Source of the DNA: a virus
Direction: 5' to 3' (one strand)
Length of the DNA: 47,281 nt
IMG/VR virus record: IMGVR_UViG_3300005753_000031
Location: 1-47,281 of that record
In this document: positions 1 to 47,281 of the stretch, one piece after another
Numbering within the stretch: the stretch's first letter is position 1
How the letters are laid out: each line of letters starts with the position of its first letter
The notes under the pieces: model-generated
What the model was told of the DNA's origin: nothing
The model's input: only the letters and a program-made list of their open reading frames with translations
The model's database searches: none
Made by a program: the position numbers and the translations under genes

Positions 1-777
1 TTCCTTTTCTTCTTCATCTTCTTCTTCGTCTTCAAGTTTTTTCTCAGCCTCTTTGGCTTTTTCTTCTGCCGCATCAGCTAATGCTTTTTGCTTAGAAACT
101 TCTGCTTTAGAATCAGTGAGTGCCTTCTCGGTACTTTCTAATTTTTTAACAGTCTTGTTAATAATTGGAGCAACGGAATCTGAAACCTCGTATTCCACGC
201 CGTCAATGTTTAGCTTTGCCATAGTAATATTCTCCTTAGGCTTGTTATCAAAAATACTGCACTCTTTACCACATCGTGCAGAATCCACAAAGGCAACGTG
301 ATTGCCGCGTATTTTCCGTTGGATGGCAGTTTTGCCATCGTCTGAAAATTCTAGTTCAGTAGTATAGCCTGCTGATAATTCTGTTTTTCCATCTTCAATT
401 TTTCTTATCAGTGTTGCATCATAAACGATAATGTCACATTTTAAATGACCTGATTCCGTTGGTTCTGCATCAATAATAGTTCCCCTATTGAATTTAGAGA
501 AATTCTCTGGAGTAATCTTTCTTCCCTCTGGATGTTCGTCAGTAATAGGTATATTAATAAAACTAGCCACAGACATAGAATCTGTAACTTCTGAAACCGG
601 ACGTTCAAGGGAAATTATTTCATGAGGCATACGGTCATTAATACCTAGTTCGCCTGCGGAATAATCTTGTTTTCCAGAACGAGAAATAATTCCCTGAAGT
701 TGAAGATATCCTTGCGGAGTTTTCTTAAAACTCTTATCACAAATCTGCAGCTTAACATCTATTAAAACATATATCAT
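1..777 (-). CDS. DUF2213-type prohead protease/scaffold, N-terminal 259 residues (continues at 47281)
   Basis: Head maturation protease, probably fused to a scaffold. The frame opens at an ATG at 777, seven bases after an AAAGG ribosome site, and is still open at base 1. Visible family marks are INIPITDEHPEG (about residues 75-85), ELSAGY (133-138) and GNHVAFVDSARCG (158-170), which supply the conserved His and Ser of DUF2213 proteins. After about residue 200 the chain becomes Lys/Glu-rich and then strongly acidic, like a scaffolding coiled coil. Joined in frame to 47281-46946 it gives 370 residues, a usual length for the family. It is preceded by a late-promoter-like box at 789-813. The protease call rests on motifs only. 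Confidence 0.85.
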   Translation of the reverse strand, partial: MIYVLIDVKLQICDKSFKKTPQGYLQLQGIISRSGKQDYSAGELGINDRMPHEIISLERPVSEVTDSMSVASFINIPITDEHPEGRKITPENFSKFNRGTIIDAEPTESGHLKCDIIVYDATLIRKIEDGKTELSAGYTTELEFSDDGKTAIQRKIRGNHVAFVDSARCGKECSIFDNKPKENITMAKLNIDGVEYEVSDSVAPIINKTVKKLESTEKALTDSKAEVSKQKALADAAEEKAKEAEKKLEDEEEDEEEKE

Positions 778-788
778 AAGTATACCTT

Positions 789-813
789 TAATTTTTGCCA
801 ACTATAACATATA
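789..813 (-). promoter_or_regulatory. Late promoter candidate (extended -10), copy before the protease gene
   Basis: The minus strand carries an extended -10 TGTTATAGT (809-801). The surrounding 25 bases match the stretch before the terminase gene (8760-8784) at 22 of 25 positions. No good -35 is visible. The predicted start would lie about 18 bases before the ATG at 777. Such a match between two intergenic stretches with unrelated genes downstream suggests a shared late promoter. Confidence 0.55.
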
Positions 814-1938: not shown

Positions 1939-2223
1939 TTAGTCTACAAAAACCTTCTGATTATCAATCGACAATGAGCCAAGAGTTGTATCAGCAGAAC
2001 AATCAACAATGCTTTTTCCTGCTCCAGTGGCTGTTACCAATACTACAACTTTAGTTCCTACAATACTTGCAGAACCTAGAGTAATTACAGAACCCGATGA
2101 AGTTTCACTCACGGCAGGAAATCCAGTTAAAGAGTCGTCTGCTGCAAGATAAGATGAATGTTCAAATTCAAGGCTTGTTTTTTCACCAATCTTCATTTCT
2201 AAAACTTCGCAATCTACTGTCAT
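1939..2223 (-). CDS. Small beta-rich virion protein, possible fibre-tail adaptor
   Basis: A 94-residue protein rich in Val, Ser, Thr and Gly, predicted as a beta sandwich, ending in VVVLVTATGAGKSIVDCSAD and a short tail. This general pattern occurs in small phage Ig-like or fibre-tail adaptor proteins. The assignment is tentative. The ATG overlaps the stop of the repeat-rich fibre-like gene (ATGA), which suggests co-translation and a physical partnership with that product. Confidence 0.6.
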   Translation of the reverse strand: MTVDCEVLEMKIGEKTSLEFEHSSYLAADDSLTGFPAVSETSSGSVITLGSASIVGTKVVVLVTATGAGKSIVDCSADTTLGSLSIDNQKVFVD

Positions 2224-3794
2224 GCTGCCACCTCTTTTATAAAGGAACCACTTCCTTTTACTATTTTTGTGAATACGCTTGAACCAGAAACAATTTTAGT
2301 AAATGAACCTCCAGTAAGAACTACACCAGAAACGAAAATGCCAACTTGTGAATCTTCTAGTGTTAATGATAAATTTAAATCTAATTCTTGTGAAACGATT
2401 ATATTCGTAGATGTATTTTCAAGAATTAAAGATAAGTTAATTCCAATTTCTGTTTCTGAATTTATACTTACCGTTGTATCTTCAAGTATGGTGTTTAATG
2501 CAATAGAACCAGCGCCACCCAGACCAACCTGAATACTTGCTACCGTATCATCTAATGTAATGCTACCACTTACATTTAATATATTTTGCGCTTGTATAGC
2601 GGTTGTAGTTGCCTCTAATAACAGTTCTAAATTTACGCCAGCTTGCTGACTAGCCTGAATATTTGTAATTGTGTCAGCAAGAACAATATTGAAATCAATA
2701 TCATTTTCAAGAATAGTTAAGATAGAGGCAATTGTATTTTCTAAAACTAATTCTAGTATTACCGCTTCTTCTTTCGAAACTACAATATTTGTTATTGTAT
2801 CATCTAAAGTAAGATTTAAATCTATATCATCTTCAACATTTGATGAAATTGAAGTGATTGAATTTTCAAGTATTAATTCTAAGCCTACTCCTTGTTCTAA
2901 AGAAGCTAGTAGGCTAACCACGATATCATCAAGTGAAACTGAAATTGTCGCATCTGCTTCTAATGAAGCTTGAATATTGACCGTGGTGTCTGATAATGCA
3001 ATGTCTAAATTTATTCTTTGTTCTGTTTCTATAACCGATGAAGCTACAGTGTCATCAAGGACTACGGCTATAGAAGTGTCTAATGCTATTTCAGATGCAA
3101 CTCCGCTAAAACTTAATAGTGTCCAAGCTCTACGTTGATGTAATGTAGAACTTTCTTGCTCCATTGTTTTCGCGGCTGCTATTATTTGTGTAAATTGACT
3201 AACTACACCACCAGCATTGCTCTGGTCTTCAATCGCTGCTAATTGTGTTTCAGTACTAGTGAATGTTGGAGCATTGCTATGACTAATAGCCCAAATATCT
3301 ACAATCAAACAATCATTGTCTACAGGCGTTATCGATGCACTGAATTTAGCTGCTGCAGCAACATCGGTTATACTGATGTTTTGTACTAAGTTGTCATAAC
3401 CTTCATCTGGACAACCTAATATTTCAAAACATATCCAAAGGTGCCGATCAATGTCTCCATCAAAGTCTGGCTCAAAAAGATAAGAGCCTGCTGAGCTTGG
3501 TAGGTCTGCATCCTTAATAAAGTAGACGCCATTCTGACTTGAGCGAATACCTTCTTGGGCTATACTTGTAACCCCTTGCAAGGCAATTTCTCCACCTACT
3601 AATGTCGCATTAACTCCTGCTGTGTCAAAAGCTAGTGCACTAATTATATTCACGACAGCTGTACTATCTTTTGCAAGATTACATAAAACCAATAAGCGTC
3701 CAGATTGAGCCGCAGATATCGGAATATTAAAGTCCAATGGACCTGTGCCCGAATAAGTGACTATGCTTGCAGGAGTTATTACAGGAGCTGCCAT
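2220..3794 (-). CDS. Fibre-like virion protein with twelve 21-residue repeats
   Basis: A 524-residue protein in three parts. Residues 1-230 form a globular, beta-rich domain with hydrophobic strands (LLVLCNL, LWICFEILG). Residues about 236-488 hold twelve tandem repeats of 21 residues with the pattern hydrophobic-x-hydrophobic, LDDT or LENT, then an I-x-S segment. Residues 497-520 repeat a short FTKIV(S/K)GS unit three times. The same 21-residue repeat ends the DUF2612 baseplate protein at 35014-36084. It sits between head and lysis genes of the late operon. A surface fibre or appendage is likely, but no enzymatic motif was seen. Confidence 0.65.
   Translation of the reverse strand: MAAPVITPASIVTYSGTGPLDFNIPISAAQSGRLLVLCNLAKDSTAVVNIISALAFDTAGVNATLVGGEIALQGVTSIAQEGIRSSQNGVYFIKDADLPSSAGSYLFEPDFDGDIDRHLWICFEILGCPDEGYDNLVQNISITDVAAAAKFSASITPVDNDCLIVDIWAISHSNAPTFTSTETQLAAIEDQSNAGGVVSQFTQIIAAAKTMEQESSTLHQRRAWTLLSFSGVASEIALDTSIAVVLDDTVASSVIETEQRINLDIALSDTTVNIQASLEADATISVSLDDIVVSLLASLEQGVGLELILENSITSISSNVEDDIDLNLTLDDTITNIVVSKEEAVILELVLENTIASILTILENDIDFNIVLADTITNIQASQQAGVNLELLLEATTTAIQAQNILNVSGSITLDDTVASIQVGLGGAGSIALNTILEDTTVSINSETEIGINLSLILENTSTNIIVSQELDLNLSLTLEDSQVGIFVSGVVLTGGSFTKIVSGSSVFTKIVKGSGSFIKEVAA
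2331..3089 (-). repeat. Tandem 63-bp protein-coding repeat, 12 units
   Basis: Twelve in-frame units of 63 bp (one is 66 bp) encode the 21-residue repeat of the fibre-like protein. Representative units contain LTLDDTITNIVVS, LVLENTIASILT and IVLADTITNIQAS. The DNA copies have diverged considerably, so this is an old protein repeat rather than a recent expansion. Confidence 0.85.
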
Positions 3795-25139: not shown

Positions 25140-25375
25140 GGTCAGTGAGGGAAGCAGCATGTTTCAATTCAAAATGTAAGTTCAATAGAATTAGTGTTCA
25201 TGGTATTTCACATTTATTCTATTTCCGTAGAAATAGTATGCAAGAAAGACAAGTTAAAAGAAAGAGAATGTGTTTCTCACATGGTGGTGTAACTTTATTC
25301 GTAAATGTTTGTGAAGATTGCTCCGATTCCTACACAGTAGAAATGAGAAAGATTCTAAGTGTGATGAATGATTAA
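25136..25375 (+). CDS. Small zinc-ribbon-like protein (79 residues)
   Basis: Cys pairs (CFNSKC at 9-14, Cys46, CEDC at 59-62) suggest a zinc knuckle. A basic middle (RNSMQERQVKRKRMCF) could touch nucleic acid. It overlaps both the exonuclease and the polymerase genes, so it is probably a replisome accessory. No family recognised. Confidence 0.55.
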   Translation: MRSVREAACFNSKCKFNRISVHGISHLFYFRRNSMQERQVKRKRMCFSHGGVTLFVNVCEDCSDSYTVEMRKILSVMND

Positions 25376-28196
25376 CCTAGCGCTTCGCACGGAATATTCT
25401 TTCCAAAAAACTTACGGATTTATAGAAAAAGTTGTGGATACTCAAGAAAGTTTCGTTGGAGTGGCAGACATTAACAACACATTCGCACATTTTTACTTGA
25501 ATGAACTTTGTAAGGAGCAAAAAAAGAAACCAATTTTTGGAGTGCGCTTAATGGTTGTAGAACAACCAGAAGAGAGGATTCCACCTCGCGGACAATTTGG
25601 CCCTGAGTATATTTTTATTGCAAAAAACTATGCTGGATTAAAAGAAATTCACCTGCTTGTTGAAAGATCACACGATTGTTTTTATTATAGGGCACACATC
25701 GGAATTGTAGATGTATGGAAGCTAAGTGAAAATGTAATTGTTATGGCACCTGACTTTACAATGGAAGAAAGAATAGACTACGTTGCCGTATGTAACGTTA
25801 CTTCCAATCGTGCATTGAAATCTTCATTGCCAAGGGTTGCTATAAATAATAACTGGATGATTGAAGCTGACGACTGGGAGGTTTATGAATTATTTTCTGG
25901 TTCAAGAAAAGTTGATAGACAAACATTTCCACAACACATATTAAGCGAGAAAGAATGGTTGTTCCACTATGGAGATAAAGAGGCTGTTGAAAATACCTAT
26001 AAAATAGCTTACGAATGTGAAGTTGAATTTCCACGTGCCGAGCAATTAAAGTACAAAGGAACTGAAAAAATAAGAACACTATGTCGTAAGGGGGCAAAGC
26101 TAAAAGGAATAAATCTAAAGGACCCTGTTTATAAAAAAAGAATGAAAATGGAGCTTGAGCTAATTAAAGAAAAAAACTTTATAGATTATTTTATGATTGT
26201 TCAAGAAATGATAGCAAAGGCTAAAAAAGAAATGCTCGTTGGTCCTTCCCGTGGGTCTAGTGCAGGTTCTTTAATTTGCTACCTACTAGGTATAACAGAA
26301 ATTGACCCTATAAAATGGGACTTATTGTTTGAAAGATTTATTGATGTAAACAGAATGGACATGCCTGATATCGATATTGATTTCCCGGATAAGAAAAGAA
26401 TGAGCGTAATAAAAGAACTTGTTAAAACAAATGGAAGAGAAAATGTTGCTAACATTGCAACCATAAGCACAATGAATCCTAATGGTTCAATTGGAGACTT
26501 TGCAAGGGAACTTGAATTACCAGAGCAAGAAATTGATTCGATTAAAAACTCAATCATTTCAACGACAGTCGGTGATACACGGCGCAGAAGTTTTAGAATG
26601 GAAGACACTTTTACCACAACTTCTGTTGGAAAACTATTCATAGAAAAATATCCTGAAATGTGGGAAGTAACTAGGATAGAAAAACATGCAAGGCATAGCG
26701 GCAAACATGCAGCAGGAATAATCGTTGCAGCAAGACCGATAAGAGAATTTGCTAGTGTTAATCCTCGGGAAAATTCAATGCAGCTTGAAGGAAAATCTGC
26801 TGAAAAAATGAACCTATTGAAAATAGATTGCTTAGGTCTATCTACACTCTCTGTTCTTGAAGAAGTTGCCGATGCAATTGGAATGAAATATTCAGACTAT
26901 TACGAAATGGAATGCGATGATGACAATGTTTTTAAATTATTTAGAGAAATAAAGGTCAAGGGTATTTTTCAATTTGAAGGCCATGCACTAGCAGGTCTAT
27001 GTAGAACAATTAAGGTAACAAACATAGAAGACATAATTGCGATAACAGCACTAGCACGTCCTGGTCCACTTCATGGTGGTGGTGCTGCTAAGTTTTCTAA
27101 AATACATTCCGGTCAAGAAGATATAGAATATATAATTAACCATCCAGATGTTATTTCTATAACGAAACCAACAATGGGTGTTATAGTATATCAAGAACAA
27201 ATCATGCAGATACTAAGGGGAATCGGTGGTTTCGCATGGGAAAATGTTAATGGTGTTCGTAAATTAATTTCAAAGAAAAGTGGTAAAGAAAAGATAGATA
27301 AATTTAGAGAAGAGTTTATTTCGGGTGCCGATAAAAATGGAATTAAAAAAGAAGAAGCAGAAGACGCTTGGAGAAAGATTTTAGAATTTGCACAGTACGG
27401 ATTTAATCGTAGTCATGCCGTGGCTTATGGCTTAGTAAGTTACTGGACGGCATGGTGCAAGGTGTATCATCCCTTACAATTTTTAGTTGCTAACTTAAAT
27501 AATTCAAAGGGTCATCTTTCTTCCATGAGGATGATAAGGGAAATGAAAGAGTCACATAAGTTTGAATTTATATCTTATGATAAAGAAAAGTCTGGTGAAG
27601 ACTGGGAGGTACATGGTAATAAAATCATAGGACCACTAACAAGCATAACCGGAATAGGTAAAGTAAACGCAAAAGTCATTATAAGAAAAAGAGAAACTGG
27701 TGAAAAAATGGCAGAAGGAATTACAAAGAAATTAGAAAAAGGAGAAACAAAATTTGATATTCTATATCCTTGCAAGCATTATTGGGGGGCAATGTTTAAA
27801 ACACCAAAACGATATGGACTATACACCAAGCCCACAGTAATTAAAAAGGTAAACAAAAAAGGTGAATATTTAATTGTTGCACAGCTAATGAAAAAGAACG
27901 TGCGTGATTTAAATGAAATTCAAAATGTATTGAAGCGTGGTGGGGAAATATATGAAGATAATACTAAGCTGCTAAATATTACAGTTGAGGACGATACAGG
28001 GAGTTTAATGTGCAGGGTCAATCGCTATGAATACGATAAGTTAGGTGCTATAATAGCAGAGGAAGGAGAAGAAGAAACTGACTGGTATTTAATAAGAGGA
28101 AAAATAATCAGTGATGATATTATTTTCCTATTCATTTCAGAAATACATAAACTAGGAGACGGTAAAACAGATGGACAAACTATTACAGATATTTGA
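25368..28196 (+). CDS. dnaE: DNA polymerase III alpha subunit (DnaE, C family)
   Basis: Phage replicative polymerase, 942 residues. Recognisable family elements: VGPSRGSSAGSLICYLLGIT (about 284-303), PDIDIDFPDKKR with catalytic Asp (about 332-343), HARHSGKHAAGIIV, KIDCLGLSTLSVLEE, FQFEGHALAGL, ALARPGPLHGGGA, VYQEQIMQI, and HAVAYGLVSYWTAWCKVYHP. The N-terminal PHP region lacks the His pairs of an active PHP, so proofreading may depend on the exonuclease encoded next door. The C-terminus has an OB-like segment (LLNITVEDDTGSLMCRV). The last 26 bases overlap the HD gene. Confidence 0.9.
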   Translation: MINLALRTEYSFQKTYGFIEKVVDTQESFVGVADINNTFAHFYLNELCKEQKKKPIFGVRLMVVEQPEERIPPRGQFGPEYIFIAKNYAGLKEIHLLVERSHDCFYYRAHIGIVDVWKLSENVIVMAPDFTMEERIDYVAVCNVTSNRALKSSLPRVAINNNWMIEADDWEVYELFSGSRKVDRQTFPQHILSEKEWLFHYGDKEAVENTYKIAYECEVEFPRAEQLKYKGTEKIRTLCRKGAKLKGINLKDPVYKKRMKMELELIKEKNFIDYFMIVQEMIAKAKKEMLVGPSRGSSAGSLICYLLGITEIDPIKWDLLFERFIDVNRMDMPDIDIDFPDKKRMSVIKELVKTNGRENVANIATISTMNPNGSIGDFARELELPEQEIDSIKNSIISTTVGDTRRRSFRMEDTFTTTSVGKLFIEKYPEMWEVTRIEKHARHSGKHAAGIIVAARPIREFASVNPRENSMQLEGKSAEKMNLLKIDCLGLSTLSVLEEVADAIGMKYSDYYEMECDDDNVFKLFREIKVKGIFQFEGHALAGLCRTIKVTNIEDIIAITALARPGPLHGGGAAKFSKIHSGQEDIEYIINHPDVISITKPTMGVIVYQEQIMQILRGIGGFAWENVNGVRKLISKKSGKEKIDKFREEFISGADKNGIKKEEAEDAWRKILEFAQYGFNRSHAVAYGLVSYWTAWCKVYHPLQFLVANLNNSKGHLSSMRMIREMKESHKFEFISYDKEKSGEDWEVHGNKIIGPLTSITGIGKVNAKVIIRKRETGEKMAEGITKKLEKGETKFDILYPCKHYWGAMFKTPKRYGLYTKPTVIKKVNKKGEYLIVAQLMKKNVRDLNEIQNVLKRGGEIYEDNTKLLNITVEDDTGSLMCRVNRYEYDKLGAIIAEEGEEETDWYLIRGKIISDDIIFLFISEIHKLGDGKTDGQTITDI

Positions 28197-30858: not shown

Positions 30859-31343
30859 AAAAAGAAGATATAAAGGTTTACATTGCAGCACCATTCTTTA
30901 ATGACGATGAAATTCGTGTGGTTGAAGCGATTGAATTTGCCTTAACTCAATATGAGATTAGTTATTTTTCACCAAGGTCTGAAGGTGTTATAAAAGAAAT
31001 GACTGTCGTTGAAAAAATTAGTAAAATGAGAAACATTTATGATTCTAACATAGAGGGTATAGCAGGGTGCAATTTAATGATTGCAGTAATAGATGGAAGA
31101 GATGTTGGAACAATGTTTGAACTAGGAGTTCAGGCTTGTATGGCAAGAGACAGAGTTGACGAGAGATACGTAGTCACATTCTCAGATAAGAATTTCGGAT
31201 TAAATGTAATGCTGAAATTTGCAAGTGATTGTCATATAAATGGATTTGAAGAGTTTCAAGACATGCTGCTCAATATTGGCAATGAAGGTTTATCTCGTGC
31301 TACACTTATGCAACATGGAACTGAACTAGAGGTAACAACATGA
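30855..31343 (+). CDS. Nucleoside 2-deoxyribosyltransferase-like enzyme
   Basis: A 162-residue NDT-fold protein. Visible motifs: VYIAAPFF (8-15), DSNIEGIAGCNLMIAVIDGRDVGTMFELGVQACMA (contains the catalytic Glu in TMFELG, about 87-92), then TFSDKNFGLNVML. Such enzymes exchange bases between deoxynucleosides. It starts in ATGA with the ThyX-like gene, so the two are translated together. Confidence 0.8.
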   Translation: MKKEDIKVYIAAPFFNDDEIRVVEAIEFALTQYEISYFSPRSEGVIKEMTVVEKISKMRNIYDSNIEGIAGCNLMIAVIDGRDVGTMFELGVQACMARDRVDERYVVTFSDKNFGLNVMLKFASDCHINGFEEFQDMLLNIGNEGLSRATLMQHGTELEVTT

Positions 31344-32398
31344 AATTATATAAATTAGATTCAGTTGGAAAGTTGAGGCTATGGGAAGTTATCCGTGTCA
31401 AAAATACTATCCATGTTCGTCATGGTCAGGTTGATGGAGCAATGCAGGAATCAGAAGATACAATTCGTATTGGCAAAGGTGGACGCACAGTTGACGAGCA
31501 AATTGAAATGATGATAAGCTCAATGATAAAGCGAAGAATTGAACGTGGATATTTTTACAACAAAAGCGATGTCGTGAAGAAACCTAAGAATAGCCTTGGT
31601 TTTCATAACCCGATGCTAGCTTCAAAAGTCAACTACGATAAAATTGAATATGAAAATTGTTATGTTCAACGGAAATATGATGGACATAGATGTCTAATAA
31701 CTATGCACAATGGGGCCGCCATAGCGTACAGTAGAGGCGGTAAAAAAATAACAAGTATAGCGCACATACTTGATGAGATAGTGGCCGCTGACAGGCTTCA
31801 GGAAGGAGAAACACTGGATGGTGAACTGTATATACATGGAATGGCATTGCAAGACATAGGAAGTTTAGTGCGTACTCAGAAAAATCAATCGCCTGAACTT
31901 ATTTATCATTGTTATGATTTTATTTCTAGCGAAAGTTTTATTAAAAGACTTGGAAAAATAAGAAAAATTTTTACAAGAATGAAATATTCTCGTTCTATTT
32001 CAACAGTGTATGCTAGTGATGAATCTACAATTGTCTCATGGTTTAAAACTTTTAGAAATGAAGGTTACGAAGGTGCAATTGTTAGATGGGGAGAAAATGG
32101 ATACGAGGATGGAAAACGAACTAAATATTTAATGAAAGTTAAAGAAGTTATCCGAGCTGAATTCAAAGTGATAAATGTTCTGTCATCGGTTGACGGACTT
32201 GCTCGATTAATATGCAAATGCAAGGGTGGTGAATTTGCTGTTTATGCACATGGAACTCATGTAAGGAAAAGAGAAGTTTTAATAAATAAAGAAAAATATA
32301 TAGGGAAATACATATCTGTGGAGTTTGCAAGCTATACAAATTCTAAAAAACCATCTCAGCCGATAGCAATTGAATGGAGGGAAAAGAGTGAGTTTTAA
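31340..32398 (+). CDS. ATP-dependent DNA ligase with N-terminal WGR-like domain
   Basis: Residues 1-50 have a WGR-like pattern (LRLWEVIRVKNTIHVRHGQVDG...). The rest is a covalent nucleotidyltransferase ligase: nucleotide-binding QRKYDGHR with Lys112, then GETLDGELYIH, FISSESF, YEGAIVRW and KYLMKVKE (motif V), and a C-terminal OB fold. It would seal phage DNA nicks. The fusion with WGR, a DNA-end or RNA-binding module known from PARPs, is uncommon. It ends the rightward arm. Confidence 0.8.
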   Translation: MKLYKLDSVGKLRLWEVIRVKNTIHVRHGQVDGAMQESEDTIRIGKGGRTVDEQIEMMISSMIKRRIERGYFYNKSDVVKKPKNSLGFHNPMLASKVNYDKIEYENCYVQRKYDGHRCLITMHNGAAIAYSRGGKKITSIAHILDEIVAADRLQEGETLDGELYIHGMALQDIGSLVRTQKNQSPELIYHCYDFISSESFIKRLGKIRKIFTRMKYSRSISTVYASDESTIVSWFKTFRNEGYEGAIVRWGENGYEDGKRTKYLMKVKEVIRAEFKVINVLSSVDGLARLICKCKGGEFAVYAHGTHVRKREVLINKEKYIGKYISVEFASYTNSKKPSQPIAIEWREKSEF

Positions 32399-34478: not shown

Positions 34479-35014
34479 TAATATTTCTCCAATTGAAATG
34501 TAGTTTTGTCTACTTGAATATTAAATGTGCTGCCGATACTAACTGCTATAGAAACTACATCACCGGATGTTAAAGAAAAAGCTTCTGTAAATATTTCCAT
34601 ATATTTTTTAGGAACCGCATCTCCTTTACCATAATATCCATAGAGTCCAATTTGAGTGTCAGAACCATTTATTCTGAAAAATACCTTGCCATTGCGAGCA
34701 GAGTCTTGATGCAAAGCAGAAAATGTAACTCTATATAATCCTGTTGTTGCTATAGTAACTTCACCAGTTGAAATATTTCCAATGCCAGTCGTGAAATCAA
34801 ACCCTGTCATTTTCTCTGCAACATTTAAAGTTGGAACACTTACACTAAGATTATCTGCATACATTGTGGAAATATTTTCTATTCCTGCAGAACTTAAATT
34901 TGACATTGCAATTCTTTTTGAAACAAAAATTGGGGATGCACTTTTATCTATAATAACTATTTCATCCGTGGGTGAAAAAGAAGTTATTTCTGTTAAACCA
35001 TTAAAATCAGGCAT
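34478..35014 (-). CDS. Tail fibre paralogue A (C1q/TNF-like fold candidate)
   Basis: A 178-residue protein with N-terminal anchor FNGLTEITSFSPTDEIVIID, then MTGFDFTTGIGNISTGEVTI and GLYRVTFSALHQDSARNGKVFF. The latter two are typical of C1q/TNF-like phage receptor-binding heads. It starts on the stop of the DUF2612-like gene (single-base overlap). Confidence 0.7.
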   Translation of the reverse strand: MPDFNGLTEITSFSPTDEIVIIDKSASPIFVSKRIAMSNLSSAGIENISTMYADNLSVSVPTLNVAEKMTGFDFTTGIGNISTGEVTIATTGLYRVTFSALHQDSARNGKVFFRINGSDTQIGLYGYYGKGDAVPKKYMEIFTEAFSLTSGDVVSIAVSIGSTFNIQVDKTTFQLEKY

Positions 35015-36084
35015 TATTCAATCTCCCAGTCTGAACCATCTGCATTTGTTATAACATTGCCAGATGAATCTAATATCGCAGAAACATTTAATTCACCAGT
35101 CACTATCGTATCTGCTAGTGCAATAATTAAATCTGCATCGCTGACAACTGAAGTTGAGATTGAGACTATAGTGTCTGAATCAATTATAGATAGAGTAGCA
35201 TCTTGCTCAACAGTTGAGTTTATAGAAACTACAGAATCTTCTAAGGCAAGAATTAAGTTGAACGTTCCTGGAGGGGCAACCTGTATGTCAACTATAGAAT
35301 CTTCTAACACTAAGTCTAAACTTATATTTTCAATTACTTCTACATTAAGAGAAGTAGAAACATCCTCATGCGCTACTGAAATAAGCCCTTCAATTGTAAG
35401 TCCAGCGACCATAGAAGAAATAGTGTCTCCAAGCAATGTATTTAATTCAGTGTCTAGGTCAATGTCAATATCTTCATAAACATATTCTATTCGAACACCT
35501 ACTGGCCTTGGTATTAAATCTAGTGAGGCTATGAAAGATTTTTCAGCCGGAGTTAAAATGTAATTAATCTTAACTTGAAAGCTGGCATTTCCTGTTTCAG
35601 CTATGTCTACATTTATAGTTATGTTAGGATACATTAACTCTAATATTTGCCTAGTAATTAGTAGCACATCATTAGAGGTTATATTAGAAATATTTTTTAA
35701 TATCTTAGCGTTTATTAAAATTCTATATTCGCTGTCAATTAGTTTCCGTGTGGTTACTGCATTTTCATCGGCAGAACGATAACGACCTGCGACTACTTTT
35801 TCTGTTAAGCTGCCAAACCCTTTACCAGTCGGGTCTTGTAGAAAGCTAAAGTAATCTGTTTCAACAAAATCCGTAACCTCTCTTCCAACTCCAATAATAC
35901 TTCCTATTATATCTAGATTTATATTCTGTGCATTGTTGAAATATCTTTCATCTATAACTCTTTTAATTTCAACATGGAGGAAATCATATTCGGTTGATAA
36001 AGAATTTAAAAGTGCAAGTATAACAGGACTATCTTTATATTGTCCTATTAATCTTTCACTAATTATTTCGGTAATATTGTGCAT
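35014..36084 (-). CDS. DUF2612-like baseplate protein with a 21-residue repeat tail
   Basis: The N-terminal 200 residues resemble DUF2612 (Mu gp48-type) baseplate proteins: FLHVEIKRVIDERYFNNAQNINLDIIGSIIGVGRE and TSNDVLLITRQILELMYPNI. The last 150 residues are about six units of the 21-residue repeat (LVLEDSIVDIQV, LALEDSVVSINS, IALADTIVTGEL) also found in the protein at 2220-3794. Such a tail could form a beta stalk joining fibres to the baseplate. The adjacent fibre genes fit. Confidence 0.75.
   Translation of the reverse strand: MHNITEIISERLIGQYKDSPVILALLNSLSTEYDFLHVEIKRVIDERYFNNAQNINLDIIGSIIGVGREVTDFVETDYFSFLQDPTGKGFGSLTEKVVAGRYRSADENAVTTRKLIDSEYRILINAKILKNISNITSNDVLLITRQILELMYPNITINVDIAETGNASFQVKINYILTPAEKSFIASLDLIPRPVGVRIEYVYEDIDIDLDTELNTLLGDTISSMVAGLTIEGLISVAHEDVSTSLNVEVIENISLDLVLEDSIVDIQVAPPGTFNLILALEDSVVSINSTVEQDATLSIIDSDTIVSISTSVVSDADLIIALADTIVTGELNVSAILDSSGNVITNADGSDWEIE
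35071..35466 (-). repeat. 63-bp coding repeat, about six units (second array)
   Basis: In-frame 63-bp units encode the 21-residue repeat in residues about 207-338 of the DUF2612-like protein. The protein-level pattern is the same as the array at 2331-3089. Confidence 0.75.
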
Positions 36085-40062: not shown

Positions 40063-41067
40063 TTAATTCTTCTCAGGATTTTGATATTGTCTTACTAACT
40101 GGTTTATGCTCTTTGCTATTTCATTAGTCGTTAGACTTTTAACAAGTTCAGAGCTAGCAGTATTAATATTGTTATTAATAGTTATTGAAGCGTCTTTAAT
40201 CACTCCTCCTATTTCTTGCAACTTGGCAGAAGAACCAAGGTCAAATAATTTTGATGGATTCTGCATAAAAAACTCTGCATCTTTTTGAATATTAAATGCT
40301 CTCTTGCCAACTTCTTTTTCAATGAAGTCGTATACCGTCGTTAACAGTGTTGTGAAACCCTTAGTAATTTGAGGGATAACTTCAAGCAAGTCTTCAAATG
40401 CGGGAATTAGCTTTTCAATAATGGGCTCTATATTTTTTAAAAATTCGTCGCCAAAAGTGTCTGCCATTCTAGAAAACATATTGTTTAACTTTTCTATATT
40501 CTTAGTGTCAAATTTTTCAGGTGTTAATTTTTTTAATAATTCACCTGTAAGACCTAATACAAAATTTTGAGCCTCAGCATCAAAGCCTCCTCTTACGAAA
40601 GTTCTGCGCTGCTCTCTTTTACCTTGAGCTTGTATTGCTTTGGATACTGCTAGTATTCTATCAGGTAAAGATTTATTTATTAAATCGCCTAAGTTTAATC
40701 TTAACTTTGCAAAGGTTTCAAGGTCTTGTTCTGATATTAATCCTGACTCTTTCTTTGCGCGTAAATCACTAAGCATGTCTAAAAGACGATTAGCTCCAGA
40801 GCTGGAACCAGTTAGCTCATTGGCCGCACGATTTATACCTTCAAGTTCTTCTCTTGTTGTGTTAAGCCCCTGACCTAGTCTTTTTTGTGTAAGGGCTTTG
40901 TTGGCAAACCTTGAATACATTAATCCTAAGGAAGTTGCTAATCCGATTGCGACAATAGCAAGTTTCTTCATGGACCCTAAAGTTGCTTTAACACCTTTAT
41001 TGAACTTTTCCATTTTATCTTTGTCATATTCATAACCAAGTTTAACGAAAAATTTATCAAGTATCAT
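40063..41067 (-). CDS. Short tail tape measure protein
   Basis: 334 residues, predominantly helical, with a hydrophobic helix near residues 35-52 and a long C-terminal helical tail. It lies just after the frameshifting chaperone pair, the hallmark position. At roughly 1.5 angstrom per residue it implies a tail of about 50 nm, so a short contractile tail. No lysozyme domain is seen. Confidence 0.8.
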   Translation of the reverse strand: MILDKFFVKLGYEYDKDKMEKFNKGVKATLGSMKKLAIVAIGLATSLGLMYSRFANKALTQKRLGQGLNTTREELEGINRAANELTGSSSGANRLLDMLSDLRAKKESGLISEQDLETFAKLRLNLGDLINKSLPDRILAVSKAIQAQGKREQRRTFVRGGFDAEAQNFVLGLTGELLKKLTPEKFDTKNIEKLNNMFSRMADTFGDEFLKNIEPIIEKLIPAFEDLLEVIPQITKGFTTLLTTVYDFIEKEVGKRAFNIQKDAEFFMQNPSKLFDLGSSAKLQEIGGVIKDASITINNNINTASSELVKSLTTNEIAKSINQLVRQYQNPEKN

Positions 41068-41658
41068 TTGTTTTCCTAATTTCTACTATTAAGTCCAATG
41101 CTTCATGCATATCATAAAGGTCGCATATATTATAAGTTCCATTTTCTAGCTCTTTATATACGCATAGCTGCGGTTCGCTTAATATTGGCCTCCATATAAA
41201 CAGGTCAATATTCGGTGTAATTTTATCTATATTACTTTTTACAGGTTCATCACCTACAGTTCCTCGATGAACCCTTCTATAAAATTTCCAAATTCACACT
41301 TTAGTATCCAGAATAAAACTTCATACATTTCACTCATGTGATTTGTAAAGTGGTTGTCCATGTTAACTCTCTCAGCCTCATCACCAATACCACGGAATGC
41401 AGGTATAAAAATTCTAACTATTAAGTCAGCAACATGGTCAGGTTCATTGTCTGTAAAAACTTTTTGCATTGCATTTCCAAACGCGGCCAATTGCTTATCA
41501 GAAGTTTTATCTTTACCCATAGCAGGAATAATTTCAGTTAACGCTCCACCAATAATTTTTGCTAAACGAAATTTTAATTTTAAAGACTTCGTTGCAGGTA
41601 ACTGAGTGTAGGCATAATGATTGCCATTAATTTCCGTGGTGAATGTTTCGCAACTCAT
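41057..41658 (-). CDS. Tail assembly chaperone, frameshifted long form (G-T type)
   Basis: A second product of the chaperone gene made by a programmed -1 shift. Frame 0 runs 41658-41281. Base 41281 is then read again and the -1 frame continues 41281-41057 to its stop, giving about 200 residues. The added part has no usable start codon of its own; it includes IDKITPNIDLFIWRPILSEP and YDMHEALDLIVEI. The stop overlaps the tape measure start. Long forms of this kind wrap tape measure proteins during tail assembly. Confidence 0.8.
41244..41287 (-). promoter_or_regulatory. Programmed -1 ribosomal frameshift site with hairpin
   Basis: On the minus strand the slippery heptamer A-AAT-TTT (41287-41281) lies exactly in frame 0. 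A seven-base spacer follows, then a perfect 8-bp stem GGTTCATC/GATGAACC (41273-41266 with 41251-41244) with a 14-base loop. The loop carries the frame-0 stop codon (41256-41254). Heptamer type, spacer length and stem fit canonical bacterial -1 frameshift signals. Confidence 0.85.
41254..41658 (-). CDS. Tail assembly chaperone, short form
   Basis: 134 residues, helical, with ATKSLKLKFRLAKIIGGALTE near the start and a C-terminal MYEVLFWILKCEFGNFIEGF. It lies between the tube and tape measure genes, as phage tail chaperones (gpG-like) do. The frameshift signal near its end yields the longer form. Confidence 0.8.
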   Translation of the reverse strand: MSCETFTTEINGNHYAYTQLPATKSLKLKFRLAKIIGGALTEIIPAMGKDKTSDKQLAAFGNAMQKVFTDNEPDHVADLIVRIFIPAFRGIGDEAERVNMDNHFTNHMSEMYEVLFWILKCEFGNFIEGFIEEL

Positions 41659-41659
41659 A

Positions 41660-42088
41660 TTATAACTCCGAAGTTCCTGTATTGATTAAGTCTAATCTTT
41701 CAACTGTTATAATCCATTCGGTTTCATTTGCATTTTGACCGAATGTTTGCTTGGCTGGTTTTGTTATATATCCCTGAGTACCAGAAATTAACTCGCCACC
41801 TTGAGTATTTTTAATTTGAATAAACACTGGAACGAATGCACCGTTTTCTTGAGAGGTAATGAGTGCAGTTAGCAGGGCATTACTTTCAGAAGTTTGCATT
41901 AACTTAAATGTTATTGAACCAGAGCGGTCATTTGAAATAGACAATGTCATCTTTCCATCAACACCAATAATGTGCTGACCACTATCTTCAAATCGTTCAC
42001 ACATAATAGCATCGTCACCCTTCGGCCAACCAGTAATTTCCTGACCTTGAACTAGCATTATTACATTATTAAAACTATATGCTTTCAT
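41660..42088 (-). CDS. Tail tube protein, DUF3277 family
   Basis: 142 residues. Conserved-looking segments: MKAYSFNNVIMLVQGQEITGW, then IIGVDGKMTLSISNDRSGSITFKLMQTSESN. This family forms the inner tube in Pam3-like and related contractile tails. It follows the sheath gene, which is usual. Confidence 0.8.
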   Translation of the reverse strand: MKAYSFNNVIMLVQGQEITGWPKGDDAIMCERFEDSGQHIIGVDGKMTLSISNDRSGSITFKLMQTSESNALLTALITSQENGAFVPVFIQIKNTQGGELISGTQGYITKPAKQTFGQNANETEWIITVERLDLINTGTSEL

Positions 42089-42097
42089 TATTTTCTC

Positions 42098-43558
42098 CTA
42101 GCGTTCAACTACGCCATCAATTTGAATAAAGTGAACCGCACCTGCTAACAATGCAGTAAATGCGATTGCAGGAGCAATACGATTTCCTTTGTCTACTGGA
42201 TTCATGTCAGCAACTTTTTGCACAGAAGTTATATATCCATTACCTAAGAATACTCCGCCACTAGTAGTACCTGTTCCAATCATGCCGTTACTATTGGCAG
42301 CATCCAAAGCACGGATTAGTTGTTGTTCAATTGAAGAAGCACCGGCATCAGTTAATGGAATTTTTGTTGGACGCGTAATTAGATATCCAAATACATTAGA
42401 TTCAATTTCTCCAGCTAGCCAATCAATACTATGTCGTTCATCAAAAAATAACTGAGAGCTCATAAAGCTTTCAGCTAACATTGATGTTCCTGCAATTGAT
42501 GTTAAGGCATTTCCACGCTTATCATCAAGAGCACTTTTTTGAGAAGTAGTTAAATTTTCAGTTGTAATTCCTGCAAGTGGCTTGAACTTTAATGTTATAA
42601 CACTATCAGGCGAATCAAAATTAACTGTAAACGCTTTTCCTAATATCGCAGCATCTGGATATTCCTCTGTAACAGAGGAGAAGATCACCGTGGTTCTTTG
42701 ATAATTTGAATTGCTAAGCTTATAAATATTATTATCAATATTATTAAGAACAAGTGAATTAGGATTGTGAGAGGTTGTTGAGAATAATTTAACTCTTGCC
42801 TCAGCCCATGCAGCAACATCAAGTTGAACTTGTGTGTCAAAATGCAATGACTGAATCAAAACACCATACCAATCTGAACTTGCAAACTCCGCAGCTGATA
42901 ATGAATCAATAACAGTTTCTGCAGAAACGCCTGCGAATACCTTCACACCACTGATAGAAACATCGGTAAACATGTGTGCTATGGAAATATCTGCACCTGA
43001 GGCAGCTTGTAAGGTTGCGGTAATGTTGCCACCTACTAAAGCATTTCCAATTTCAAAATGGTCTACATTCCAAATGCAAGTTGATGCACTCCAAGCAGCG
43101 TCGGCTGCCTGAATTCCTGTTTCGATAATTGCTGCTACTGCATCCATGTCGGCAGCAGCAGAAAAATCAAGAAGTAAAACATCAGCCGTAACACTATTCA
43201 TTGTCATGGCAAAGCTTCCAGTGGTTATTCCTGTCCACTGGGCAACTAAAGATTGAGCAGTTACACCAGTAAGCGTACCCTGAAATCCTACATCATAGTT
43301 TGCGATTACAGCGAACAATGTTGGAGAAGGACTTTGACTGAAATACGAAGTTGCAGCTTTACTAACATCACTAGATGAACCCCATTCTAAATCTACTTCT
43401 GCCGCTGTAGAATAAAATTTAATTCTTTCATTTGGTTGTGAACCAGAAAGAAGATTTTCTTTTGTTACGAATGCGGCAGTTCCAAAGCCTTGTTTAGCCG
43501 GAACCGCAGGAGCTACTGAAACATTAACGGTAACGATACTCGATATAGGTAAAGTCAT
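42098..43558 (-). CDS. Tail sheath protein, DUF3383 family
   Basis: 486 residues. It starts MTLPISSIVTVNVSVAPAVP with AFVTKENLL; the middle is Ala/Thr-rich, and the C-terminal domain contains LDAANSNGMIGTG and GYITSVQKVADMNPVDKGNRIAPAIAF. These match DUF3383 sheath subunits of short contractile phages. It establishes the myovirus morphology. Confidence 0.85.
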   Translation of the reverse strand: MTLPISSIVTVNVSVAPAVPAKQGFGTAAFVTKENLLSGSQPNERIKFYSTAAEVDLEWGSSSDVSKAATSYFSQSPSPTLFAVIANYDVGFQGTLTGVTAQSLVAQWTGITTGSFAMTMNSVTADVLLLDFSAAADMDAVAAIIETGIQAADAAWSASTCIWNVDHFEIGNALVGGNITATLQAASGADISIAHMFTDVSISGVKVFAGVSAETVIDSLSAAEFASSDWYGVLIQSLHFDTQVQLDVAAWAEARVKLFSTTSHNPNSLVLNNIDNNIYKLSNSNYQRTTVIFSSVTEEYPDAAILGKAFTVNFDSPDSVITLKFKPLAGITTENLTTSQKSALDDKRGNALTSIAGTSMLAESFMSSQLFFDERHSIDWLAGEIESNVFGYLITRPTKIPLTDAGASSIEQQLIRALDAANSNGMIGTGTTSGGVFLGNGYITSVQKVADMNPVDKGNRIAPAIAFTALLAGAVHFIQIDGVVER

Positions 43559-46460: not shown

Positions 46461-46946
46461 TTATTTAGCACTTACGCGAATTAAACCAACGAAAATTGAA
46501 GCTGCCTGACCTTCTAACGAAATATCAATAGCAGGTTTTTCAATGTAGGCTACAAGACCAGTTAATGCGGTTCCTGCTCCTGCTGCAACGACCTGTCCAG
46601 AGGCATTGATCGTAACCGCCGCATCAAGTGTTCCATTGATTGCATCAAACTCCGCCCAAATATAACCTTCACGAAGAACTGCAACAGTCTCTTCATCTTT
46701 ATATTTACCAGCAACGATAGCTGCCTGTTGATAGTCATTTTCACTTGCGTGTCGAATTGAAACTCCAATCGCAGATGCACCACCTAATAGACATTGACCT
46801 TGAGGATCAGTCCCACGGGAAACAAAACGACCGTGCTGAACTTCACCTTCCGCTGCAAATGAATCTATGTTAGTGTTACCAATATCATAGATTAAACCTG
46901 CCAAACGAGTAGGAATGTTTTTTCCGTAATTTAATTGAGCAACCAT
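46461..46946 (-). CDS. Capsid cement/decoration protein (Gp24-like)
   Basis: 161 residues, beta-rich: GEVQHGRFVSRGTDPQGQCLLG, IGVSIRHASEND, YKDEETVAVLREGYIWAEFD. These resemble phage structural cement proteins encoded next to DUF2184 capsids. G+C is higher here than in the rest of the late arm. Two GATC sites lie within it. Confidence 0.75.
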   Translation of the reverse strand: MVAQLNYGKNIPTRLAGLIYDIGNTNIDSFAAEGEVQHGRFVSRGTDPQGQCLLGGASAIGVSIRHASENDYQQAAIVAGKYKDEETVAVLREGYIWAEFDAINGTLDAAVTINASGQVVAAGAGTALTGLVAYIEKPAIDISLEGQAASIFVGLIRVSAK

Positions 46947-47281
46947 TATTTGCCACCTCCGTTGTTACGAGCGATTTTTGCACTACGAGCTTTAGCAACC
47001 ATGTCGCCTCCACCATCATTAATTTCACTACTCATGTGGTCCATCAAACCTTTTTCAAGTTTGCTTGCACCCTTTAAGTCTTGATCTTCAACAAGAATTT
47101 GGAATCGTGTATCAATATACATTTCATCTTTATCTGTTAAGTCAATTTCAGGAATAGCGTCAGTTAAAACGTCGCGTTTGATTTCAGTTAAAGATTTACC
47201 GGAAGGGTCATAATCTTTTAAGAATTTAGAAGCAGAAATTAAAGTACCAAGACGAGAGTTCACTGCATCTTGAATCTTTTT
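46946..47281 (-). CDS. DUF2213-type prohead protease/scaffold, C-terminal 111 residues
   Basis: The frame is already open at 47281 and runs to a stop at 46946. It starts KKIQDAVNSRLGTLISASKF and continues with the DUF2213 C-terminal pattern IPEIDLTDKDEMYIDTRFQI and a Gly-rich end. A GTG at 47263 could mimic a start, but the chain continues upstream across the circle join to base 777. The stop is fused to the cement-protein start. Confidence 0.85.
   Translation of the reverse strand, partial: KKIQDAVNSRLGTLISASKFLKDYDPSGKSLTEIKRDVLTDAIPEIDLTDKDEMYIDTRFQILVEDQDLKGASKLEKGLMDHMSSEINDGGGDMVAKARSAKIARNNGGGK

Follow-up and report, generated by a model that had tools for sequence, protein, structure and literature searches.

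A predicted -1 ribosomal frameshift in the TAC_15 tail assembly chaperone gene of a contractile-tailed phage and its relatives

Organization of the chaperone locus

The virus record IMGVR_UViG_3300005753_000031 was analysed over its full length of 47,281 bp (the window), with focus on the tail assembly chaperone gene and on a second reading frame that overlaps its end. The short form of the chaperone (G-like, TAC-N) is encoded on the minus strand by an open reading frame (ORF) of 134 amino acids at 41254..41658, and was assigned by matches to Pfam PF21822, Phage_TAC_15 (E = 4.2e-20), and to phrog_1613, tail assembly chaperone (6.5e-21). The heptamer A-AAT-TTT is located at 41281..41287 (minus strand) in X_XXY_YYZ phase with the chaperone ORF, as a preliminary description of the sequence had stated, and the distance from the heptamer to the frame-0 stop TAG (41256..41254, minus strand) is 31 nt. 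A -1 open frame of 78 codons and a TGA stop (41059..41057) covers 41057..41293 on the same strand; the 74 codons past the heptamer make up the extension (T-like domain), the end of which overlaps the start of the tape measure gene by 11 nt. The predicted slip product has 200 amino acids and the junction ...CEFGNF/YRR.... The length of the open -1 frame, the junction peptide EFGNFYRR, the coordinates and the ending over the tape measure start were all correct in the preliminary description. Its claim that the extension lacks a start codon of its own was narrowed: none of ATG, GTG and TTG occurs before codon 62 of 78, and an ATG (codon 62) and a TTG (codon 66) lie within the last conserved helix, so that the claim is valid for starts early enough to cover the entire domain.

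Downstream of the heptamer, folding places a 3' hairpin of 10 bp, including two terminal G-U pairs, at 41243..41274 (minus strand), with the 5' arm at 41274..41265, the 3' arm at 41252..41243, and a loop of 12 nt that contains the frame-0 TAG. The Watson-Crick core consists of eight pairs (41273..41266 with 41251..41244), flanked by one G-U at each end, and the spacer is 6 nt from the heptamer to the hairpin and 7 nt to this core, which is the perfect 8-bp stem with a 7-base spacer and a stop in its loop recognized earlier. A scan of the window against Rfam gave zero matches.

With about 51 in-phase XXXYYYZ heptamers per 9,134 codons as the basis of the estimate, any such heptamer is expected by chance within the ~12-codon overlap with P ~0.065, and an in-phase AAATTTN or TTTTTTN with P ~0.013. 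The window sequence by itself is suggestive of frameshifting, and we consider the comparative sequence data decisive.

Phase and slippery site across related loci

Related loci were gathered by homology to the tail genes, nearly all with the extension domain as query, and therefore the phase of the extension was not selected for. A search of viral contigs with an alignment of the extension core returned 103 relatives, of which 80 were kept, and seven genomic loci were added. The pairs were assessed with separate profiles for both halves, and removal of near-duplicates resulted in 71 non-redundant chaperone/extension pairs. The viral-contig search with the short form alone gave no confirmed relative, an eight-member fused alignment used as query on the viral contigs contained no sufficiently conserved stretch, and phage DNA near-identical to the window was not found.

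The extension was in the -1 phase in 71/71 non-redundant pairs and fused in frame in none (0/71). Homologues carrying the downstream part on its own start, named in the preliminary description as evidence that would count against a frameshift, were looked for in the same set: all 71 overlap in the -1 phase, and no plain in-frame gene was present. The sole +1 call was locus L072, whose upstream chaperone ORF is broken but which carries the same AAATTTG site. In-frame fusion had been a candidate for RHph_I65 and Pam3, each of which gave a single uninterrupted tblastn piece, and was rejected at the DNA level, where both show a -1 overlap with T-TTT-TTC; the piece is uninterrupted because the -1 frame runs back under the chaperone. 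The first six annotated relatives all had the extension in the -1 frame, for the most part without annotation, and T-TTT-TTC/T stood at the same codon in four of them. That gene callers would miss the extension was likewise borne out, as it was omitted or chopped in the annotated records examined.

The proposed comparison of the heptamer in related phages was conclusive. AAATTTN or TTTTTTN stood at the homologous codon in 62/71 pairs, in comparison to 4 of the 8,586 other in-phase codons. The 62 heptamers comprised 24 TTTTTTC, 10 AAATTTA, nine TTTTTTA, six AAATTTT, six TTTTTTT, five AAATTTG and two TTTTTTG. The exact AAATTTT of the window was found in L001, the closest sheath relative, which carries the identical A-AAT-TTT, and in 5/61 other loci. 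In nearly all loci the site fell within 0-1 codons of the N-profile end; the exceptions were L053, three residues off, and L088, with a split profile match. The sequence elements, the -1 phase and the conservation at the homologous codon are direct observations.

The extension domain

The window extension matched phrog_4364 (4.4e-12) and PF21829, DUF6889 (E 3.8e-5), the latter with 23.8 bits, just below the cut-off of 23.9 bits. Among the relatives, the extension matched phrog_4364 in 45/45 and DUF6889 in 42/45 (E <= 0.01), and the N part was TAC_15 in 43/43 members. Both DUF6889 and phrog_4364 are listed without function in their databases, and no mention of DUF6889 was found in the literature searched. 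These matches allow DUF6889 / phrog_4364 to be identified as the frameshift-encoded extension of TAC_15 chaperones across a broad set of phages with contractile tails, which is a useful by-product for a domain so often lost in annotation.

The AlphaFold model of the extension consists of a flexible linker and a helical domain, with a mean predicted local distance difference test (pLDDT) score of 81. The top viral fold matches were small uncharacterised proteins of phiEcoM-GJ1, PM1, PaP1 and PAK_P1, with E-values of 0.002-0.3 that make the likeness only suggestive. Neither sequence nor fold comparison with solved structures gave the extension a clear relative.

The downstream hairpin

The window hairpin has a minimum free energy of -11.5 kcal/mol, and the hairpin of L001 is compatible with it, with the same spacing and different bases in the inner part. 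Across the relatives, folding downstream of the site was stronger (mean z -1.3) than in upstream controls (-0.2), although not everywhere. In 16 relatives a GGCCAG...CTGGCC stem was identified with the same 6-nt spacing, six pairs kept in all (100%) and three double changes, and its pairing exceeded that of shuffles and slid controls. The hairpin region has coding sequence in two frames simultaneously, which places an extra constraint on its sequence.

Two observations weigh against the frameshift reading. The window hairpin is only moderately unusual (z = -2.4), as 6/200 shuffles fold equally well, and no strong hairpin was found at the closest chaperones, L011-L013 (47-48% identity), which have a T-TTT-TTA site; the role of the hairpin is thus not uniform across the family. 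As judged from pairing and folding, the hairpin is a real but non-universal part of the chaperone/extension family. The G/G-T-type reading of the preliminary description is supported by TAC_15 homology, gene order and the ~70 relatives, with the qualification that a strong simple stem is not family-wide.

Degenerate slippery sites

The remaining 9/71 pairs had GGT-TTT, GAT-TTT, GAT-TTC, GAT-TTG, GGT-TTA, CCT-TTA, or TTT-TTC after GAG, and T-TTN in the A site was kept in all nine. The CCT-TTA site is preceded by C, and C-CCT-TTA is itself a canonical heptamer. A T-TTN A site of equal phase and position, but with a non-canonical P-site half, was recorded in L002 (3116-3130), L005, L032, L051, L070, L083, L094 and L095. 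Faunus and pOW20-A have the canonical A-site half only.

Across the aligned family, conservation of the slippery site is higher in the A-site half than in the P-site half, which varies between AAT, TTT, GGT, GAT and CCT. It is conceivable, though we lean against it, that the invariant element of the family is the A-site T-TTN and not the full XXXYYYZ, and that slippage at loci with a poor P site is set mainly by the A-site tRNA (Phe or Leu). If true, the rule would be looser than the two-tRNA model, and scanners for heptamers would miss such sites. The ~70 loci, in which one homologous codon is occupied by either of two heptamer types or by degenerate variants, form a natural series on the requirements of bacterial -1 slippery sites.

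Origin of the long form

Three other explanations of the overlapping frame were weighed. Among them, reinitiation or internal initiation past the chaperone stop, which would make the extension a separate small protein, survives best and is still very improbable. Small separate ORFs are annotated at the extension in some GenBank records (SppYZU05 gp10, 31 codons including the stop), canonical starts with a Shine-Dalgarno-like sequence occur in the -1 frame of 9/62 loci, and T4-like phages are argued, to judge by the title of Vladimirov et al. 2022 as cited in PMC12846349, to make their tail chaperone forms by another mechanism. However, the window has no such start over the greater part of the frame, as described above, and 8/9 of the starts in the relatives lie inside or just before the conserved core, so that their products would be truncated domains. 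Moreover, reinitiation needs neither a fixed -1 phase nor a conserved slippery codon pair at a homologous position. Slippage of the polymerase instead of the ribosome is a still poorer explanation, to which we give almost no credence: the T-TTT-TTN sites of the relatives are short T runs, as it would require, whereas polymerases would not slip efficiently on a run as short as the A3T4 of the window, mixed +1 and -1 products would be expected, and the sites keep a strict codon phase, which indicates the ribosome. A decaying frame beside an accidental heptamer, for which the P ~0.065 given above leaves some room, is refuted by the comparison, in which the extension is a conserved family (phrog_4364, DUF6889) in the -1 phase at all 71 non-redundant loci.

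A -1 ribosomal frameshift in the TAC_15 chaperone gene that yields a long form of the G/G-T type is accordingly the prediction that we favour from the sequences, with a probability of approximately 0.95. Slippage itself, its efficiency, its stimulation by the hairpin and the binding partners of both forms are what we infer in the following model. Most ribosomes would stay in frame 0 and produce the 134-aa short form, and a minority, paused by the hairpin 6 nt downstream, would slip one base back on A-AAT-TTT, with AAT re-pairing on AAA and TTT on TTT, and continue reading in the -1 frame. The resulting 200-aa long form would carry the helical domain of DUF6889, joined to it by a flexible linker. 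If lambda gpG/gpGT are a guide, the tape measure protein may be coated by the short form together with the N-terminal part of the long form, the extension may bring the tube protein to it, and slippage would keep the long form at a low ratio to the short one. The case is real and ordinary in kind, being one more example of classic recoding, and the mechanism itself is therefore not news; the additions made here are the DUF6889 assignment and the greater conservation of the slippery site in its A-site half.

Gene neighbourhood and virus

The tail genes are ordered sheath - tube - chaperone - tape measure - Dit-like - Pam3-type plug - E217-type hub. The tail sheath protein (DUF3383) of a contractile tail is encoded at 42098..43558 on the minus strand (PF11863, 3e-67; phrog_205, 1e-96), followed by the tail tube protein of the KPP10_Orf10 family at 41660..42088, minus strand (PF11681, 1.9e-14; phrog_280), which is the expected partner of the T-like extension. 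The tape measure protein (334 aa; ORF at 40063..41067, minus strand) was assigned by its position between the chaperone and the Dit-like gene and by matches to phrog_2013 (tail, 7e-11) and phrog_12506 (tape measure, 6e-4); its match to Pfam TMP_2 (0.0026) was below the cut-off. On the evidence of these genes, the virus is a contractile-tailed phage with a tail related to those of Pam3 and Chaseviridae, and more distantly to those of KPP10/PAK_P1-like phages. Tape measure proteins were of 358-362 aa in L011-L013, of ~305 aa in L065, L086 and L087, and up to >1000 aa in others; on account of the short tape measure protein, a very short tail is predicted for the group.

An ORF cut at the left end of the window (1-801) resumes in frame at the right end (46946-47281) on the minus strand, which suggests that the record of 47,281 bp is a complete genome, either circular or circularly permuted. 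Degenerate repeats of ~19-27 aa, of the type 'LxLxLEDTIxSIxSSxE', were identified in two minus-strand ORFs, 2220-3794, which has no Pfam match, and 35014-36084, where a DUF2612 baseplate domain precedes the repeats. The phage has a gene for a polymerase of the DNA polymerase III alpha type, with PHP, NTPase and finger domains, at 25368-28196 (+), and one for an ATP-dependent DNA ligase at 31340-32398 (+).

Comparison with known systems

Frameshifting by -1 in tail chaperone genes is textbook knowledge from the G/GT genes of phage lambda. The arrangement predicted for the window is matched by lambda gpG/gpGT, where a single gene immediately upstream of that for the tape measure gives rise to two chaperone forms through -1 slippage at a low level; the tape measure protein is bound by the G part, and the tube protein by the T part (PMC5009743). 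Unlike the window, lambda has another heptamer and a non-contractile tail, with no detectable sequence similarity shown.

The model of the short form is a confident fold (pLDDT 89), for which the best solved match was 5ir0, ORF19 of a Vibrio cholerae element resembling phage-inducible chromosomal islands, with function unannotated (Foldseek probability 0.98, E 0.05), together with a weak profile match over its length (E 0.25). TM-scores of only 0.46-0.58 make the relation tentative. A phage satellite may carry a relative of the tail chaperone at 41254-41658.

In December 2025, conserved -1 frameshifting of the chaperone gene was reported for Vandenendeviridae and Andersonviridae, with phage Adele and the forms TAC-N/TAC-NC; the PAK_P1-like phages are the group concerned (PMC12846349). 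The slippery motif is reported there as GTTTTT (PMC12846349), whereas the window has A-AAT-TTT and a clear hairpin, and the chaperones of the two are weakly similar (~24%, E ~1e-3); models of the extensions of PaP1 and PAK_P1 (Pakpunavirus) are fold matches of the window extension. A like layout was found in the myophages of Chaseviridae and in Pam3, RHph_I65, pOW20-A and ctfzr933, which share with the window the gene order, a TAC_15-like chaperone and a mostly unannotated -1-frame extension between chaperone and tape measure, and differ from it in having mostly T-TTT-TTC/T at the same codon.
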